From SAR92 clade bacterium H921 (GTDB taxonomy: Bacteria; Pseudomonadota; Gammaproteobacteria; Pseudomonadales; Porticoccaceae), in assembly GCA_025153755.1 (NCBI GenBank), contig JAOALD010000001.1, positions 124,001 through 188,000 of the forward strand: a stretch of 64,000 bases of DNA, written 5' to 3'. Each line of letters begins with the position of its first letter. The first letter of the stretch is position 1. The notes beneath the pieces were generated by a model. The model saw nothing but the letters and a program-made list of their open reading frames with translations, ran no database searches and was not told the origin of the DNA. Positions 1,476-29,883 of the stretch are shown piece after piece. A program made the position numbers and the translations under genes.

Positions 1476-2303
1476 ATGCTTAACAGAAGCTCCACTCAAA
1501 TCATCGGTATAGCCAGCGGCAAAGGAGGCGTAGGCAAAACAACTGTTTCGGTTAATCTTGCCGTTACCCTTGCCTCGCTAGGTAGAAAAGTGATGATTTT
1601 TGATGCTGACTTGGGCCTGGCAAATGCTCAATTGGCCTTGGGGTGTCGCACACCATATAACTTTAGCCATGTGCTGTCCGGCGAAAAAACCCTCAGCGAA
1701 ATCGTTGTTGACGGGCCAATGGGCGTAAAGCTTGTGCCTGGAGCCAGTGGTATGCAGCATATGGCCTCGTTAAGTTCAGCAGAAACTGCCGGTATCATTC
1801 AGTCCTTTTCAGAGATTGAAGACGACTTAGACTACTTCATCGTGGATTTGGCGGCGGGACTCTCAGACACTGTTATGACGTTCATGCGCGCCTGTCAGCA
1901 CCGTTTTATTGTGCTGAAGAACGAGCCATCTTCCATAGCCGATGCCTACGGAACGATTAAAGTAATGATCCAGGAACATCAGCTTGACCGCATCAGTCTA
2001 ATTCCCAATGGTGTCACCTCCCAGAATGAAGGTGAGCAGCTTTACGGTAGTATTAACTCAGTGATTCAAAACTTCCTAGGTGGCCGAGTAGACTATTTAC
2101 ACTCTATTGCCGAGGATGAGATGGTTCTCAGAGCAATTAAAGCCTCTCAGCCGGTGATATCCTTTGCCCCCTCGAGTATCGCCACGCGTGACTTTAAGTC
2201 TCTGGCTAAAATGGTCATGACTCTTGACTCTGAAATTCCTATGACTGGTGGTCTGCAGTTCTTTATCGAAAGACTAGCTACCCAGCAACAAGGGGCTAGT
2301 TAA
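1476..2303 (+). CDS. flhG: MinD-like ATPase FlhG (FleN)
   Basis: ParA/MinD-family ATPase that counters FlhF and limits flagellar number; in Pseudomonas and Vibrio the homologue also restrains the master regulator FleQ/FlrA. The deviant Walker A GKGGVGKT is at residues 15-22, followed by the switch segment FDADLGLANAQLALG and a Walker-B-like FIVDLAAG. The length of 275 aa is normal. The ATG at 1476 has an AAGG nine bases upstream. fliA starts nine bases after the stop, so the two are surely co-transcribed. The FleQ-like protein at 22050-23186 is the likely partner. Confidence 0.95.
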   Translation: MLNRSSTQIIGIASGKGGVGKTTVSVNLAVTLASLGRKVMIFDADLGLANAQLALGCRTPYNFSHVLSGEKTLSEIVVDGPMGVKLVPGASGMQHMASLSSAETAGIIQSFSEIEDDLDYFIVDLAAGLSDTVMTFMRACQHRFIVLKNEPSSIADAYGTIKVMIQEHQLDRISLIPNGVTSQNEGEQLYGSINSVIQNFLGGRVDYLHSIAEDEMVLRAIKASQPVISFAPSSIATRDFKSLAKMVMTLDSEIPMTGGLQFFIERLATQQQGAS

Positions 2304-2312
2304 GGGCTACTT

Positions 2313-3032
2313 ATGACTGACGTCAAAATATATCAAGATATTCAAAATGCCGATCAAAACAGCAGTGAGCTGCTAACTCATGTTGGATTGGTCAAACGCG
2401 TTGCCCTACACCTTAAGGGCAGGCTTCCAAATTTTATGGAACTGGATGAGTTAATTCAGGTAGGTATGATTGGTCTTATTGAAGCGAAAAGCTCTTTTGA
2501 TCCAAGCAAAGGCGTCGAGTTTGAAGTGTTTGCTAAAAATCGTGTGCGCGGCGCCATTCTTGATCAGGTTCGCAAGCTGTCTTATCTGCCGCGCTCAGCC
2601 ATAGTAAATATTCGCGACCACAACGAAGCCCATACCGCTCTTAGCAATGAATTAGGGCGCGAAGCGTCACAAGCAGAACTAGCAGAATTTATGGGCAAGG
2701 ATATAGAGAGCTTCCAAAAAGAGCGTACTCACGCCCATCGCTTTCAGACAGTGTCCTTAGAGGCCCAACTGCCAGATTCCGTGGACCTTCCGGTTAACGA
2801 ATCCAATGAGCCTGAAGCCCAGATGGCCCAAGATCAGTTTATGGAGTCACTAGAGGAATCTATAGAAAACTTGCCAGAACGAGACCGTACTGTAATATCC
2901 CTGTATTACGTTGAAGAAATGAACCTTAGAGAGATAGGTGCCGTTCTAGATGTCAGTGAATCACGAGTGAGCCAGATTCTATCATCTAGCGTAAAGAAGT
3001 TACGAAATCGTCTAGACCTCGGGGCCTTATAA
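2313..3032 (+). CDS. fliA: Flagellar sigma factor FliA (sigma-28)
   Basis: Sigma-28 for late flagellar genes (flagellin, stator, chaperone). Region 2 is visible at about residues 45-100 (LDELIQVGMIGLIEA, then VEFEVFAKNRVRGAILDQ) and the region 4 helix-turn-helix near the C-terminus (LREIGAVLDVSESRVSQIL). The length of 239 aa fits the family. Likely targets in this window are the TAAAG/GCCGAT promoters in front of fliS (25855) and pomA (30723). The next gene starts only two bases after the stop. Confidence 0.97.
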   Translation: MTDVKIYQDIQNADQNSSELLTHVGLVKRVALHLKGRLPNFMELDELIQVGMIGLIEAKSSFDPSKGVEFEVFAKNRVRGAILDQVRKLSYLPRSAIVNIRDHNEAHTALSNELGREASQAELAEFMGKDIESFQKERTHAHRFQTVSLEAQLPDSVDLPVNESNEPEAQMAQDQFMESLEESIENLPERDRTVISLYYVEEMNLREIGAVLDVSESRVSQILSSSVKKLRNRLDLGAL

Positions 3033-3034
3033 GC

Positions 3035-3583
3035 ATGGCTTTATCATTGTTTAAAAACCGCGCAGCAAAAACGGCTATGCGTCATGCCAAAGAAGAATAT
3101 ATAAAGGCTGCATCCCTTAGTAGTGATAGCCGAGAAGCTCGCACCTATAAGATCCGCATGGGTATCCGTTGCCGAGCACATCTAGATAAGCTGTTTATAG
3201 ACGGTGCTAAAAAAACAGAAATATTTCAACAAAAGTGCATGACGGCCGTCGCTAAAGGATTAGATAAACCTGCGCCGCCTAAGCCCAATCTCTTCCAGAC
3301 AGTTAAGACTGTCAGCGGTCAGATATACACCTATGTACCGGAAGAATTCGCTCAGCCCGTATTTGATTTAGGCTCTATGTACCAAACTATGCAGATTGAT
3401 GCATTCAAAGCGATTACACTTGTCCAAGAAGTCGCTGAGCGAGTTAGCTTTGATTTAGGTCTAGAGGGCCCGATCATCACACTGCAGTTTTTGCGCGATG
3501 AGTTAAGCGCTAGTGAAGAAGTAGATAACGATGAAAGTGGTGTCAGCACGGATGAAGATAAAACGCAGGAAGACATTAATTAG
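3035..3583 (+). CDS. Unrecognised 182-aa protein downstream of fliA
   Basis: Soluble protein with a basic N-terminal third (many Lys/Arg, FKNRAAKTAMRHAKEEY) and a strongly acidic tail (last about 25 residues rich in Asp/Glu). No signal peptide or membrane segment is seen. I do not recognise the family. It starts two bases after the fliA stop, where cheY usually sits in Pseudomonas, so it is co-transcribed with flhG-fliA and probably connected to the flagellum; that link is inferred from position only. Confidence 0.72.
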   Translation: MALSLFKNRAAKTAMRHAKEEYIKAASLSSDSREARTYKIRMGIRCRAHLDKLFIDGAKKTEIFQQKCMTAVAKGLDKPAPPKPNLFQTVKTVSGQIYTYVPEEFAQPVFDLGSMYQTMQIDAFKAITLVQEVAERVSFDLGLEGPIITLQFLRDELSASEEVDNDESGVSTDEDKTQEDIN

Positions 3584-3600
3584 TTTTTGACTCCGATGAT

Positions 3601-4257
3601 ATGCAAGAGCCTATGACACCAATAATTTTGCTAACAGTGCTGCTTGGAACTGCTGCCACTATTATCCTACTCATTTATTTAATCGATCGAATAAACCGCC
3701 TAGAGCGGCTAACTTTCAGTGATGCTAGGCCCGCCGCCGAACAAAACGCAGAAAGTGCTGCTGACAATTCTTTTTTAGGTCTATCCGGCCAACTGCTGTG
3801 GGATGCCATGGAGGGAAAGTCGCCCGAGGGCTTCAATGAGAACGACCTTATAACGCTAAAGCCTCGCTACGAACGGTTGTTACAGACTCATATTGAGCGA
3901 ATCTTCGATGAAGGAGTCAAAGACGCACGACAAGGGGCTAAGGCTAAAAGACCAAGGATACCATTAGAAATCAAAACGTTGCGGGGATCTGTTAACTCTT
4001 GGATGCCACCGCAGCACGCCTCTGCCATTTACAATGCCGGGTTTCAAAGCGTCAATGCAGCGGAACCAGAGCTCTCTGTTATCCGAGATGGCCTTGATAA
4101 TGCGGCAAACCTTCTCTATTCTCGCACCAATCTAGAGTTACAAACGCCGTTTTCATCAGCGCTTTTGCCGTCCCCCGGGCCCGTTGAGGAGACGCTTCTG
4201 GAGGATCTGCCGCCACTCCCAGATGAACCAGCCGCCAACGAAAATTCGAGCAAGTAG
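3601..4257 (+). CDS. Unrecognised 218-aa protein with one N-terminal membrane helix
   Basis: One hydrophobic helix at about residues 6-27 (IILLTVLLGTAATIILLIYL), then a soluble domain (LLWDAMEG, PRYERLLQTHIERIFDEGV, RGSVNSWMPPQHASAIYNAG) and a Pro/Glu-rich tail. It looks like a membrane-anchored protein; which side the soluble part faces cannot be decided from sequence alone. It follows the 182-aa gene by 17 bases and ends exactly against the stop of the convergent 348-aa gene (4257/4258). Family unknown to me. Confidence 0.7.
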   Translation: MQEPMTPIILLTVLLGTAATIILLIYLIDRINRLERLTFSDARPAAEQNAESAADNSFLGLSGQLLWDAMEGKSPEGFNENDLITLKPRYERLLQTHIERIFDEGVKDARQGAKAKRPRIPLEIKTLRGSVNSWMPPQHASAIYNAGFQSVNAAEPELSVIRDGLDNAANLLYSRTNLELQTPFSSALLPSPGPVEETLLEDLPPLPDEPAANENSSK

Positions 4258-5304
4258 CTAACGCTGGGCCTTAATTTTGGGGTACACCACAATTGAGGGA
4301 TCGGCCTCTGGCTGGTCCTCGCGATCCTGTACCTCTTGCAAGGCTACCTGACGCTGCAAAACCTCAAGATAATTATTCCGCTCCAGGGCCACCAGTGCTT
4401 CGACGTCGGCGTTTAAGTTGGCAACTGATTGTATGCGCCGGTCGAATGTTTTAATTTGAGTGCCGAGTTTCTTCACCGTGCCAGTGACCATCTCGACTTT
4501 TGCGCCCTGCGCTTTTAACGCCGTATTCAGCTGTTGAATCTGTACCGCAACCTTGCCGGTTTCGGCTCTAACAGTTTGAGCGGTCGCGGTCGGAACCTGC
4601 TTACTCAAATTTGCAATAGCCTGTTCTGTCTTGGATATTTCTGCAGCTAGCGCTAACTGATCACTCGCGAACTGTGACTGTTTCATAGCCAATTGATTGA
4701 TCGAAAAATTCATTTGCTCAAAAGTCTGCAACGCAGAATTCATTTTAACCACGCGCTTGCTGAGCGCAACCATCATACCATCAACCTGCTCAACCCGAGA
4801 TGAAAGCTCGATTGATAAAAAGGCAATAATACCCACAGCAACCAGCAGTGTGGTAACGGCACCGAGCATAACTCTTGTGGTCATAACCGCGCTTTTAGCG
4901 CTGGCATCTACCAATTCATTGACTCTTTTTTGTAGGTGATCAAGACCATTTTCAAGCGCCGATGACGCGCGACGACTCACATCTGCCGCGCTATTAGTCG
5001 CGTCTGCGGTATCTAGTACACCTGGCACTAAAACTTCCAGGCGACTAGAGATCTCTTGCGCGTTTTTGAGTACCTGAGAAAATCGTTGATAGTCCCCCGA
5101 CTCCGGCTTGTCACTGTCCATATCATCCTTGGCAGCCTGTTCGGAAGCCTCTGCCGGCTCAGCGTCAGTATCTAAATCTGCATCGCCAGCGACCTCTTCG
5201 AGCACTTCCTCTTGCTCTTGCTCTATCGCGGCAACATCAGCCTCTTGGTCTACTGATAGTTCAGGACTTTCGGTATTTTCAATTTCGTCTTCAGGATTAC
5301 TCAT
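4258..5304 (-). CDS. Unrecognised 348-aa membrane protein with long coiled coils
   Basis: Acidic low-complexity N-terminus (residues 1-70), a helical segment with heptad character (about 75-135), one membrane helix (about 145-167, MLGAVTTLLVAVGIIAFLSI), then a long predicted coiled coil (about 170-330) and a short basic tail. The layout resembles membrane-anchored scaffold or receptor-like proteins but I recognise no family. Its ATGA start overlaps the stop of the 118-aa gene by four bases, so it is the last gene of the flhB-side operon. Involvement with the flagellum or cell pole is an inference from position. Confidence 0.72.
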   Translation of the reverse strand: MSNPEDEIENTESPELSVDQEADVAAIEQEQEEVLEEVAGDADLDTDAEPAEASEQAAKDDMDSDKPESGDYQRFSQVLKNAQEISSRLEVLVPGVLDTADATNSAADVSRRASSALENGLDHLQKRVNELVDASAKSAVMTTRVMLGAVTTLLVAVGIIAFLSIELSSRVEQVDGMMVALSKRVVKMNSALQTFEQMNFSINQLAMKQSQFASDQLALAAEISKTEQAIANLSKQVPTATAQTVRAETGKVAVQIQQLNTALKAQGAKVEMVTGTVKKLGTQIKTFDRRIQSVANLNADVEALVALERNNYLEVLQRQVALQEVQDREDQPEADPSIVVYPKIKAQR

Positions 5305-5657
5305 AGGGATTCCGAACTGGTTACAGGTGGCACTTCATGATGGCCATCGAGCGCATCTAGTTGCGAAGAAATATCGGCAGAAACGCGTTTAACTTTAGAA
5401 ATTCGCTGACTCAATAAGTCATCGAAAAGTGCCTTATCAGCACTCATTGATGCGTCATCATATTCGTTGGCAATTAACACCTCTTGTTTATCCACAACCC
5501 TCTGTGAGGGCGAATTGACAACAACAGCATCTGCATTAGTGTTGAAACTGGCACGAGATGTCTCAGTCGATTCACCAACCGGGCCGTCTAAAACATCACC
5601 TAACTCAGCACTGACACCGGCAAGATTAAATAACTGCTCTTTTTCTGTATCAGACAT
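5301..5657 (-). CDS. Unrecognised 118-aa acidic protein
   Basis: Small soluble protein rich in Asp, Glu and Ser, without membrane helix or signal peptide. A short amphipathic segment near the C-terminus (FDDLLSQRISKVKRVSADIS) may be a binding helix. It sits between the SPOR-domain gene (23-base gap) and the 348-aa coiled-coil gene (4-base overlap), which implies translational coupling. No function can be read from the sequence. Confidence 0.62.
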   Translation of the reverse strand: MSDTEKEQLFNLAGVSAELGDVLDGPVGESTETSRASFNTNADAVVVNSPSQRVVDKQEVLIANEYDDASMSADKALFDDLLSQRISKVKRVSADISSQLDALDGHHEVPPVTSSESL

Positions 5658-5680
5658 TGCTCATCTCATATTGGCCTTAG

Positions 5681-7192
5681 CTAGTTCCGCACCACAGTTT
5701 TAAGTTGCTGTGCTCCTCTAATCCAATAATCGGCAGGTAAGCCTGACCCTTTAGTGAATTCTGTTGCCGCAACCTTTGTACTGAAGGGTCCTGATAGCAC
5801 TGCATAGGCAATATTATCAGCAGCGGCTATAGGCACGACTTTGGCTCTGCTTAAACCGGCAAAGCGCTTAACATAGAGTTGCGCCTGTTCGGTGGTACTG
5901 AGCACTATATGTTGTACAAAGAAATCCGTCGCCCTAGCTCCCTGAACAGAGCCAGAAACCCTCGCCTTTTTTCGGTCCGCAGCTTGTTGACGTCGCTCTT
6001 TTGCCGCTTTGGCCAACGCCGCTCGTTGATTGGCTAAGGCCTCAGCCGAGAGCCTTTGATCAACCTTTTTCTCAGCAACATTTTGCTTGGCAAGCTTATC
6101 CTTGTTAAGCGCCGCAACAATTGCCTGAGCCTCTACAATCTGGCTAGTAGCCTGGGTTTTACTAGGTTTTTTGACAACCTCAATTCCGGTTACTTCGTTC
6201 TGATCTACAGGTAGTGTTATCGGCTCAGAAATCTGGGAGCTTTTGGAGGTATCAGCTAACGCTGTCAGTGCGCTTGAAACGCTGGCTTCATAGCGCTCTA
6301 TCCCATCAGGATTAAACATAGAAACCACCACCCAGGTGAGTGCCAAGCTTCCTAAAAAGATCGCTAATACCGGCCAAAGTCGGCTTTTTTGAGGTTGAAT
6401 ATCTTCATCGTCATAACGGGTATCAGCATCGTCTACAAAACTAACACCACTGTCATTAAATGGATTAGTATCAGCGGAATCATCTGCAACGGCGCCATTT
6501 TCATTGGTATCAGACATTGCGGCCGGACTGTACTCATCTTGACTCTCATCGGCGTAACCTCCCTGCACTGCTGCCCCTAGACCCGCGTGCAAAAGCATTG
6601 TTTCAGTCTCTCGCTCAAAACCATGCTCTTTGGCTGCGATCATTAATTCGCGCGCCTCGTCTAGTGTTGGCGTCTCAACCACCCATCGATAGAGGCGTCG
6701 CCCAAATAATCCCAGCAACCTTTCATGGCCGGGCCAACCAGTTTTATCGACAAACAATACCAGTCGTACATTGACGCCCGGGAAGTCTGCCAAAAGTCTT
6801 ACTAGCAGCGTCCACTGCTCGTCATCAACGGCTTTGGCGTCATTGACCACCAATAATTTTACCGGCATTGCTGGATCTGCGGGTTGCCGAGCATTTTCCA
6901 TACTCATACTAGCAAGCATTTCATTAAACCGCTTGAGCAAGCTGTCGGTATTCGCAGGCAAGAAAACCTCTACCTGAAAAATATTGAGTTCACGAAAACG
7001 AGCAACCAGCATACGACAATAGTGGTCGATAACAGTTTCATTAGTACCGATCACCGCTAAGCCAAGATCTTCGTCAGCAACAGCATCCAGAGCGTGCTGA
7101 AAGCGATGCTTGTCAACGCTGCGATAAAAGATATTGCCGCCATCAAACCAGTTTTTAAACTCGAAAGTCGGTTCTTTTTTATTATCTACCAT
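5681..7192 (-). CDS. DamX-like SPOR-domain membrane protein with degenerate ATPase domain
   Basis: 503 aa. Residues 1-210 resemble the ExeA/DamX-type ATPase fold, but the Walker A position (about 44-60, AVIGTNETVIDHY) has lost its GxxxxGK[ST] motif; a Walker-B-like LLVVNDA remains at 113-119. After an acidic linker comes one membrane helix (about 272-293), a Lys/Ala/Gln-rich helical stretch (about 360-415) and a C-terminal SPOR-like domain (about 425-500, FFVQHIVLS ... YAVLSGPF). SPOR domains bind denuded peptidoglycan at division sites and poles. The gene follows flhB by 26 bases, so it belongs to the flagellar operon. A role in polar or cell-wall placement of the flagellum is inferred. Confidence 0.75.
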   Translation of the reverse strand: MVDNKKEPTFEFKNWFDGGNIFYRSVDKHRFQHALDAVADEDLGLAVIGTNETVIDHYCRMLVARFRELNIFQVEVFLPANTDSLLKRFNEMLASMSMENARQPADPAMPVKLLVVNDAKAVDDEQWTLLVRLLADFPGVNVRLVLFVDKTGWPGHERLLGLFGRRLYRWVVETPTLDEARELMIAAKEHGFERETETMLLHAGLGAAVQGGYADESQDEYSPAAMSDTNENGAVADDSADTNPFNDSGVSFVDDADTRYDDEDIQPQKSRLWPVLAIFLGSLALTWVVVSMFNPDGIERYEASVSSALTALADTSKSSQISEPITLPVDQNEVTGIEVVKKPSKTQATSQIVEAQAIVAALNKDKLAKQNVAEKKVDQRLSAEALANQRAALAKAAKERRQQAADRKKARVSGSVQGARATDFFVQHIVLSTTEQAQLYVKRFAGLSRAKVVPIAAADNIAYAVLSGPFSTKVAATEFTKGSGLPADYWIRGAQQLKTVVRN

Positions 7193-27375: not shown

Positions 27376-28617
27376 CTAGGAGCCGCCGTTGATAATAACT
27401 TCAATGCGGCGGTTTTTAGAGCGTCCCTGGGGGTTATCGTTTGAAGCCAACGGCTTGGTATCCGCAAGGCCAGTGACTGTAATCCGGCCATCGGCTATCG
27501 ATGAATTATTCACCAGGTAGTCTGCCACGGCAGCTGATCGCGCGGCAGATAGATCCCAGTTAGAGCGAAATCGCTCGCTAAAGGCCATGGGTACATTGTC
27601 CGTATGCCCTTCAATAGTAACCAGTCCAGTGCTATTGCTTATAGCGCTACCCACCTTATTGAGCAGCGGCTTAAAACCGGGCTGTAGGTCTGCAAACCCG
27701 CTGCGGAAAGATCCACGCTCTGCAAGGCGCACAATAATATTATCGCCATCGCGCTCCACTTGGGCCAAACCCTGGCTAATCTCATTGGAAAGATTCATGC
27801 GTATCTGCTGATACTGGTCGGCCACTCGCTGTTCTTTCTCCTCCTTGCTTTCACCAGACTGGCTGTCACCCACCACATCTGGCGAGGACTGCTCCACCTG
27901 AATTTGCGAGACCACTTGAGCCTGGGCGGCAGCAACTTTGGCATAGATCTCCAGATCGTTCTGCGCTACCCGAGCGCCGGAGTTAGTTTTGCTGGCCTCG
28001 CCATCGGAGCCAGTTTTAGCCTGAGATTCCACTTTGACCACTAGCTTATTGTTATCAATTCGCACGCTGACTTTACCTTCGGCAATTTCAGCTGCCAGTG
28101 ACGCACTGAGCACCTGCATATCTGAATTGGTATCAGAGTCATATTTTTTGGTTTCGCTTTTTAACTCTGGATCTATGGGCGGCTCGTCTTCAGTTGTCTG
28201 CTCCTGAATAACCTTCATCAATGTCGGATCGACTTTAGCGGTTTTATACTGTTTGGCAATGATACTTTTTGCTTTAGGCGGCTCCACAACAGGCACCAAC
28301 CGCTGCACACCAAAGGCATTTTTCATCGAACCACTGACTTCTTTGTATTTGGGCACATTCATCTCAGCAAAAGATAACAGCAGAACAAAAAAAGCCATCA
28401 ACAATGTCGCCATATCGGCAAAGGTAGCCATCCAAGCGGGGGCACCGCCTTTACAGGGGGGGCAATCGGGATCCGGCGCAGGCTCCTGTTCTTCTGGAGG
28501 TTGCGCCTCAAGTTCTTCCTCTGCCTCGTCCTCTGGTGCAACCACAGGCAGAGGCGCCTCCTCAGTTTCTGCAGGCTCGGGGTTTTCGATTGTGTTTTCG
28601 TCTTCGTTCTCAGCCAT
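27376..28617 (-). CDS. Second PomB-type stator subunit (MotB family)
   Basis: 413 aa. Acidic N-terminal extension, CPPCKGGAPAWM, one membrane helix with the ion-binding Asp68 (FADMATLLMAFFVLLLSF), plug and linker region, and a C-terminal OmpA-like peptidoglycan-binding domain (IEGHTDNVPMAFSERFRSNW, then RSKNRRIEVII). It is a clear paralogue of the gene directly upstream: membrane and OmpA parts are nearly the same while the linker differs. Both copies look intact. It lies 21 bases after the first copy, in the same operon. Confidence 0.92.
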   Translation of the reverse strand: MAENEDENTIENPEPAETEEAPLPVVAPEDEAEEELEAQPPEEQEPAPDPDCPPCKGGAPAWMATFADMATLLMAFFVLLLSFAEMNVPKYKEVSGSMKNAFGVQRLVPVVEPPKAKSIIAKQYKTAKVDPTLMKVIQEQTTEDEPPIDPELKSETKKYDSDTNSDMQVLSASLAAEIAEGKVSVRIDNNKLVVKVESQAKTGSDGEASKTNSGARVAQNDLEIYAKVAAAQAQVVSQIQVEQSSPDVVGDSQSGESKEEKEQRVADQYQQIRMNLSNEISQGLAQVERDGDNIIVRLAERGSFRSGFADLQPGFKPLLNKVGSAISNSTGLVTIEGHTDNVPMAFSERFRSNWDLSAARSAAVADYLVNNSSIADGRITVTGLADTKPLASNDNPQGRSKNRRIEVIINGGS

Positions 28618-28638
28618 TAGACTCTGCCTGAAGATTTA

Positions 28639-29883
28639 TTATGGACCATCAACAATCACCTCAATTCGACGATTGCGCGCCCGGCCATCCGGTGTGCCAT
28701 TAGATGCTATAGGTTTGGTGTCGGCAAAGCCTGCGACCAGCATGTTTTCCTGGGCAAACCCAGAATTGTTTATAAAGAAATCAGCCACTGTTGCTGATCG
28801 CGCCGCAGAGAGGTCCCAGTTGGACTTAAACCGCTCGCTAAATGCGATTGGTACATTGTCAGTGTGGCCCTCAACACGCACCTTGCCTTTGGTCATCGCC
28901 AGGGAGCTACCCACTTGGCGCAACAATTTCATAAATCCTGACTGCAAGTTGGCGCTTCCAGAAACAAAGGATCCCTGACTGGCGAGACGCACAATAATCC
29001 GATCCCCCTCACGCTCTACTTCTGCCAAGCCCATTTGAATCTCAGCGGCAAGATCCATACGAATTTTCTGCAAGCGGTCTTCCGCATTTTGATTGCTGCC
29101 CTCACTCCCAGACTGGCCATTAGAATTGGGGTCTGTATCCGAAGCGCTGGATTCAGCTCCCGAGGCAAGCTGTTGCTTGCGCACCTCGATTTCGGTAGAA
29201 GTCTCGGCCTGTGCCTCAATAACCTTGGCAGCAATATCCAGTGTCTCTTGACTAACCGGCCCGCCATTTCCAGCACCCACATCAGCAGCGCCCTCGCCAC
29301 CACTACTCTGTGGTGATTGCAATTCAACGATAACCCGATCATCCTCAAGGCGCACAATAACCTGACCTAGCTCGATTTCTTCCGATAATGTCTCTTCTAA
29401 TTTGCGAAAGCTCTTTTCAGTTTTAAAGTCCGCTTGGCGCTCTTCAGTTTTTGCCACTATATTTTTCTGCGTAATATCTAACGAGCGCTGAAGTTTGCGA
29501 TCAATAACAGTTGGCTGTGCAACCGCTGGAGTAAACTCCTCCTTGACCAGACTGCGTGCCATAGGAATCGAAATAACCGGCACTACTCGCTTTACACCGA
29601 AGGCAGCTTTAAGCGAACCGGCTATCTGTTTGTACTTGGGAACGTTCATTTCCGCGAAAGATAGTAACAGCACAAAGAAAGCCATTAGCAGCGTCGCCAT
29701 ATCGGCAAATGTCGCCATCCAGGCAGGAGCACCCCCTTTACAGGGTGGGCAGGGCGGCGGCGGTGGCGGGCCGTCATTTGCCGCGCCTCCTCCGCCCTCA
29801 GTCTCCGGGCTGTCTTCGCCCTCATTCACCGCGTCTTCTGCATCCTCTGGCAGTTCTTCGGCGTCTATTTGTTCTTCAGCCAT
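28639..29883 (-). CDS. First PomB-type stator subunit (MotB family)
   Basis: 414 aa, PomB-like: acidic Gly/Pro-rich N-terminus, CPPCKGGAPAWM, membrane helix with ion-binding Asp61, the segment AEMNVPKYKQIAGSLKAAFGV close to Vibrio PomB, a long linker (about 100-290), and the OmpA-like domain (VEGHTDNVPIAFSERFKSNW). It forms the stator with PomA and anchors it to peptidoglycan. The membrane segment is of the sodium-driven type by similarity. It follows pomA by 14 bases. Confidence 0.94.
   Translation of the reverse strand: MAEEQIDAEELPEDAEDAVNEGEDSPETEGGGGAANDGPPPPPPCPPCKGGAPAWMATFADMATLLMAFFVLLLSFAEMNVPKYKQIAGSLKAAFGVKRVVPVISIPMARSLVKEEFTPAVAQPTVIDRKLQRSLDITQKNIVAKTEERQADFKTEKSFRKLEETLSEEIELGQVIVRLEDDRVIVELQSPQSSGGEGAADVGAGNGGPVSQETLDIAAKVIEAQAETSTEIEVRKQQLASGAESSASDTDPNSNGQSGSEGSNQNAEDRLQKIRMDLAAEIQMGLAEVEREGDRIIVRLASQGSFVSGSANLQSGFMKLLRQVGSSLAMTKGKVRVEGHTDNVPIAFSERFKSNWDLSAARSATVADFFINNSGFAQENMLVAGFADTKPIASNGTPDGRARNRRIEVIVDGP

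Follow-up and report, generated by a model that had tools for sequence, protein, structure and literature searches.

A conserved gene module between fliA and flhB in SAR92-clade bacteria is linked to a divergent lineage of flagellar gene clusters

What are the five genes that lie between fliA and flhB in SAR92 clade bacterium H921? We analyzed a stretch of 64,000 nt from its 2.57 Mb genome (contig JAOALD010000001.1, positions 124,001-188,000, forward strand; here called the window). The initial annotation had described these genes, here called P1 to P5, as an undescribed accessory module of the flagellum, perhaps with a role in its polar or cell-wall placement. The genes of the locus are as follows (window coordinates).

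24-1265, + strand: flhF, with a divergent GTPase domain; the gene starts before the window
1476-2303, + strand: fleN/flhG
2313-3032, + strand: fliA, the left boundary gene; order matched in relatives
3035-3583, + strand: P1, 182 aa
3601-4257, + strand: P2, 218 aa; likely start at 3613
4258-5304, - strand: P3, 348 aa
5301-5657, - strand: P4, 118 aa
5681-7192, - strand: P5, 503 aa
7219-8367, - strand: flhB, the right boundary gene

Two gene strings, fliA-P1-P2 and flhB-P5-P4-P3, converge, with no base between their final stop codons (those of P2 and P3, at 4257/4258). This convergence without a gap had been described before and was correct to the base. The tight spacings reported for the genes (2, 17, 26, 23 and -4 bases) were identical when re-derived from the ORF coordinates. 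Relatives do not conserve the abutting stops: the gap between P2 and P3 ranges from -4 to 137 bases. The likely start of P2 is 3613 and not 3601, because its relatives begin at P2 residue 5 (an invariant M5).

We found that the arrangement is more than a chance one, because the order of the module genes recurs in more than 20 other genomes and the dN/dS ratios are low. P1 through P5 are all under purifying selection: across four genome pairs their dN/dS was 0.04-0.41, P4 being the loosest, compared to 0.03-0.17 for fliA and flhB. None of P1-P4 matched a family in Pfam or NCBIfam over the cut-off. By hydropathy, P2, P3 and P5 each cross the membrane once, whereas P1 and P4 have no span. Separately, a 64-aa open frame with no family match lies between flhF and fleN (1289-1483), and some relatives have a 75-aa frame between these genes (L050, L051).

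We searched 292 genomes of the order Pseudomonadales, 221 of which are FlhB-positive, compared gene neighborhoods, and found that the linkage to flagellar genes is conserved in flagellate members of the host genus and, for all or part of the module, in three other families. The named relatives are Porticoccaceae of the SAR92/HTCC2207 clade, including the isolates HTCC2207, MOLA455 and H231. Wherever contigs reach, the order in the genus is flhA-flhF-fleN-fliA-P1-P2, converging on P3-P4-P5-flhB-fliRQPONML. One SAR92 subclade has its flagellar genes but, of the module, has kept only P3 and P5 and is missing P1 and P2. P2 was present in 11 of 19 FlhB-positive genomes of the genus, compared to none of the 16 FlhB-negative congeners (Fisher p 2e-4).

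Four genera of the order, each from a different family, have P2: the host genus (f1-g1), f15-g15, f40-g43 and f44-g65. Family f15 has the full module set at flagellar genes, in the same order as the host genus. The arrangement in f44 is fliA-P1-P2 converging on P3, and P5 was not found there. The arrangement in f40 is flhB-P5-P3-P2, all in one direction. Strong matches to P3 and P5 in the order sample were confined to these P2-bearing genera and were all in FlhB-positive genomes. Among 185 Gammaproteobacteria (host genome included) there was no further match to P2 beyond the order, and P3 had weak coiled-coil matches only. A search of plasmids found none. Two genomes labelled as one genus (G007 and G032; L081, L084) have a minimal cluster in which a P3-like gene alone separates fliA from flhB. 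G032 has several flhB genes, and contamination is possible.

Homologues of the module proteins were mostly found with flagella, with two exceptions. Members of f15 have a second P2-like membrane protein gene near an apparent GAPDH gene (L116, L118, L119, L121, L123, L125, L133, L059). In G088, G171 and G214, which are not among the FlhB-positive genomes, this paralogue is the sole copy of P2. The other exception is a P4-P3 pair in G159 (L254:5533-7363; E 5e-13), which lies apart from the flagellar genes, at the end of a contig and next to an apparent gene for fumarate hydratase; this genome also has FlhB and FipA. Based on the synteny in four families, the lack of P2 in non-flagellate congeners, co-inheritance with a flagellar lineage (see below) and the absence of a Pfam or NCBIfam family for P1-P4, we conclude that the undescribed, conserved, flagellum-linked accessory module is real, as had been proposed. 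Its link to flagella is very probable.

The module is inherited together with a single divergent lineage of flagellar gene clusters, which is present in four families and is without FipA. The common order flhB-flhA-flhF-fleN-fliA is found in other families and also in two further genera of the host family. In a tree of FlhA, the module-bearing systems of f1-g1, f15-g15 and f44-g65 were on one side of a branch with SH-aLRT 100, and the deviating P3-only cluster (G007) grouped with them. Keeping family f1 together was rejected (p-AU 4e-40). The FlhB tree had the same grouping with f40 added, and again rejected f1 as a clade (p-AU 4e-6); the f40 placement comes from the tree only, and by identity (43%) its FlhB is no closer than canonical copies. 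A tree of FliA and FleN also had this grouping and rejected keeping f44 together (p-AU 1e-11), but long branches meet there. FlhA of the host was 69% identical to that of f15 and 65% to that of f44, compared to 57% and 53% within its own family. Because the trees join module systems of several families and reject monophyly of the host family, the flagellar cluster looks to have been moved horizontally between families. Such transfer is the simplest reading; a less simple alternative is an ancient duplicate with many losses.

P1 and P2 are related to each other. P2 has an N-terminal span (4-32 by hydropathy), a short helix or coil, a folded alpha+beta domain at about 60-190 and a disordered acidic tail. 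The AlphaFold model of P2 has a helix at 6-39 and a folded domain at 64-188, with pLDDT about 80-93. P1 has an acidic tail and no span, and its segment from about residue 37 to 156 is a homologue of this folded domain of P2 (probability 95.6, E 1e-8). Neither protein had a meaningful match in PHROGs. Judged from these alignments, P1 and P2 have a new domain in common. Foldseek and VIA found nothing significant among known structures for the fold of P2, and we rejected assignment to a known fold. Weak matches are no proof, so we do not assert that the fold is new.

FipA (DUF2802, PF10975) is a partner of FlhF in polar flagellates. It has an N-terminal span, a coil and a cytoplasmic domain, and fipA elsewhere lies behind the operon flhA-flhF-fleN-fliA (PMC11620751). 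We found that P2 has the topology of FipA (a span, a short coil and then a folded domain) and that its gene is behind flhA-flhF-fleN(flhG)-fliA, the usual end of the fipA operon. Unlike FipA, P2 is longer, adjoins a relative (P1) and is found where FipA is absent, and the two are without sequence relation (hhalign probability 6%). PF10975 had no match in P1-P5 or anywhere else in the host genome. We therefore rejected P2 as a diverged FipA.

FipA was found in none of the 17 module genomes, compared to 123 of the 204 other FlhB-positive genomes in the order sample. This exclusion is not proof of replacement: 81 FlhB-positive genomes, including those of two other genera of the host family, lack FipA and the module alike, so a genome without FipA need not have a substitute for it. 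Within f44, and likewise within f15, one genus has FipA and another has the module. At the level of genera, 4 have the module, 50 have FipA and 37 have neither. The exclusion at this level is weak and suggestive only.

FlhF of the module clade is diverged: G2 is altered (DxYR is lost), five residues are deleted after G3, and G4 is preceded by a W[DN]S motif. In the host genus, SRLE replaces TKxD. The FlhF proteins of L064 and L241, from the subclade without P1 and P2, have lost the P-loop (GRSSSENA and GRLGIENS) and may be pseudo-GTPases. Lack of the DQAxxLR helix in FleN was also considered as a trait of the module, and we rejected it because canonical systems lack the helix too.

P5 had been labelled a SPOR protein with a degenerate ATPase, and both parts of the label hold. 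The protein has an AAA+ fold (11-215), a membrane span (271-295), a long linker and a SPOR domain (423-500). The AlphaFold model of P5 has a five-stranded alpha/beta core (pLDDT about 80-90) and, in addition, a C-terminal domain. The core matched AAA+ proteins in Foldseek (E 6.5e-5, probability 1.0) and in VIA (Z about 10-12 over 136-199 residues). No P-loop (Walker A, GK[ST]) was present in any of 18 family members, and on this ground we rejected an active ATPase at the N-terminus. The Pfam SPOR profile detected 10 of 15 P5 homologues (best 9.8e-6); the window copy by itself scored below the cut-off.

We compared P5 to proteins with AAA_22 and SPOR domains that adjoin aroB in other families of the order. 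The hhalign probability was 98.5 for the SPOR part and 84 for the AAA part. Because P5 has the AAA+ fold and the SPOR domain, and aligns with these aroB-linked proteins along both parts, we conclude that it is by sequence and predicted structure a DamX-type protein, with a presumably dead ATPase, encoded in a flagellar operon. P5 shares its AAA+ fold, central span, C-terminal SPOR domain and length of about 500 aa with the DamX-type AAA+-TM-SPOR proteins, which are aroB-linked in Pseudomonadales. Unlike them, it is missing Walker A in all members, has no Pfam AAA match, and is encoded next to flhB and not aroB (in f1, f15 and f40). A SPOR profile search found four other SPOR proteins in the host genome, all of them open frames of fewer than 300 aa and none of AAA+SPOR size. 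P5 and P3 also resemble the HubP/FimV polar landmark in plan (periplasmic and cytoplasmic parts joined by a membrane span), and P5 has the wall-binding domain. In contrast to HubP/FimV, there is SPOR in place of LysM and no TPR, and a separate FimV-core protein is encoded elsewhere in the host genome. P1-P5 had no match to the LysM/FimV core or TPR in Pfam and NCBIfam.

P3, the part of the module kept most widely, has a very acidic N-terminus (35% acidic in the first 80 residues), one span at about 139-171, a predicted coiled coil and a conserved end, ALERxxYLxxLxxQ...IVVYP. Weak matches to DASH_Dad4 and SMC proteins are coiled-coil chance, and we rejected both as relatives. P4 is poorly conserved except for a C-terminal motif, RIxKVxxVxADIxxQLDxI.

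Elsewhere in the window (27376-29883), two proteins of 413 and 414 aa are encoded side by side. Their N-termini are acidic and rich in proline, resemble each other and contain CPPCKGGAP. A gene for a 251-aa membrane protein is downstream on the same strand. This could be a MotB/PomB-type stator gene that has been duplicated, together with its partner.

What might the module do? SPOR domains bind denuded septal glycan. P5, a catalytically dead AAA+ protein with a periplasmic SPOR domain, should then bind denuded septal peptidoglycan. Together with P5, P3 (an acidic cytoplasmic arm, a span and a coiled coil) would mark the division site, that is, the future new pole. The membrane-anchored P2 and its soluble relative P1 could act there on the diverged FlhF or on the first basal-body parts, doing the job done by FipA elsewhere, and P4 might be a small partner of P3 or P5. 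Our tentative reading is that P1-P5 serve a distinct polar-type flagellar system as an accessory module and help to place or start a polar flagellum. The mechanism itself, with P5 and P3 marking the septal wall and P1 and P2 acting with FlhF, is plausible to about the same degree. The earlier suggestion of polar or cell-wall placement is helped by the findings that P5 is a DamX-like SPOR protein, that P2 has a FipA-like topology, that FipA is absent and that FlhF is divergent; placement as such stays conjectural. Counting against it are the SAR92 subclade that keeps flagellar genes without P1 and P2, the P2 paralogue in FlhB-negative genomes, and the off-locus P3 and P4 in G159. A more far-reaching version is rather doubtful: an undescribed system for pole selection in which the septal wall is read by P5, the dead DamX-type AAA+/SPOR protein, and in which P5, P3 and the P1/P2 family together replace FipA as partner of the diverged FlhF, the whole moving between families within the flagellar cluster.

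It is also possible that the module is structural. P5 and P3 would be a periplasmic scaffold tying rotor or stators to the wall, P1 and P2 would be cytoplasmic and membrane adaptors, and none would choose a site. Such a scaffold would fit with SPOR wall binding, with proteins that cross the membrane once and with a coiled coil that is probably periplasmic, as well as with the reduced SAR92 subclade, which retains P3 and P5 and not P1 and P2. However, the AAA+ relation to DamX and the position of P1 and P2 behind flhF-fleN-fliA suggest early assembly or placement, and profile searches found no similarity of P1-P5 to known motor scaffolds. We consider a scaffold fairly unlikely.

The DamX-type architecture of P5 could also mean that P5 is a division protein whose expression is coupled to flagella by its position after flhB, so that the building or inheritance of flagella would be coordinated with septation. 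None of the other SPOR proteins in the genome is of its size, consistent with this possibility. But an ordinary DamX at the aroB locus may exist as well, and P5 was not found in f44 even though P1, P2 and P3 are there, and we regard a division link as decidedly unlikely. Least probable is that P1-P5 are mere passengers that do nothing for flagella and are held in position by chance or by shared expression. The GAPDH-linked P2 paralogue in FlhB-negative genomes and the P4-P3 pair of G159 are what such passengers might look like; the same boundary in four families, the absence of P2 from FlhB-negative congeners and the co-inheritance in trees all argue against it.

A paper on a SAR92 isolate has no mention of motility. 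The choice of a pole in polar flagellates is an open question, and the polar marker that recruits FipA, or the FipA/FlhF complex, is still elusive (eLife 2024, PMC11620751). A lineage without FipA, with a diverged FlhF (which in two members has no P-loop at all) and a putative wall-binding pseudo-ATPase encoded next to flhB, is a natural comparison. Because the isolates HTCC2207, MOLA455 and H231 belong to this group, the role of the module would be testable if they are amenable to manipulation.
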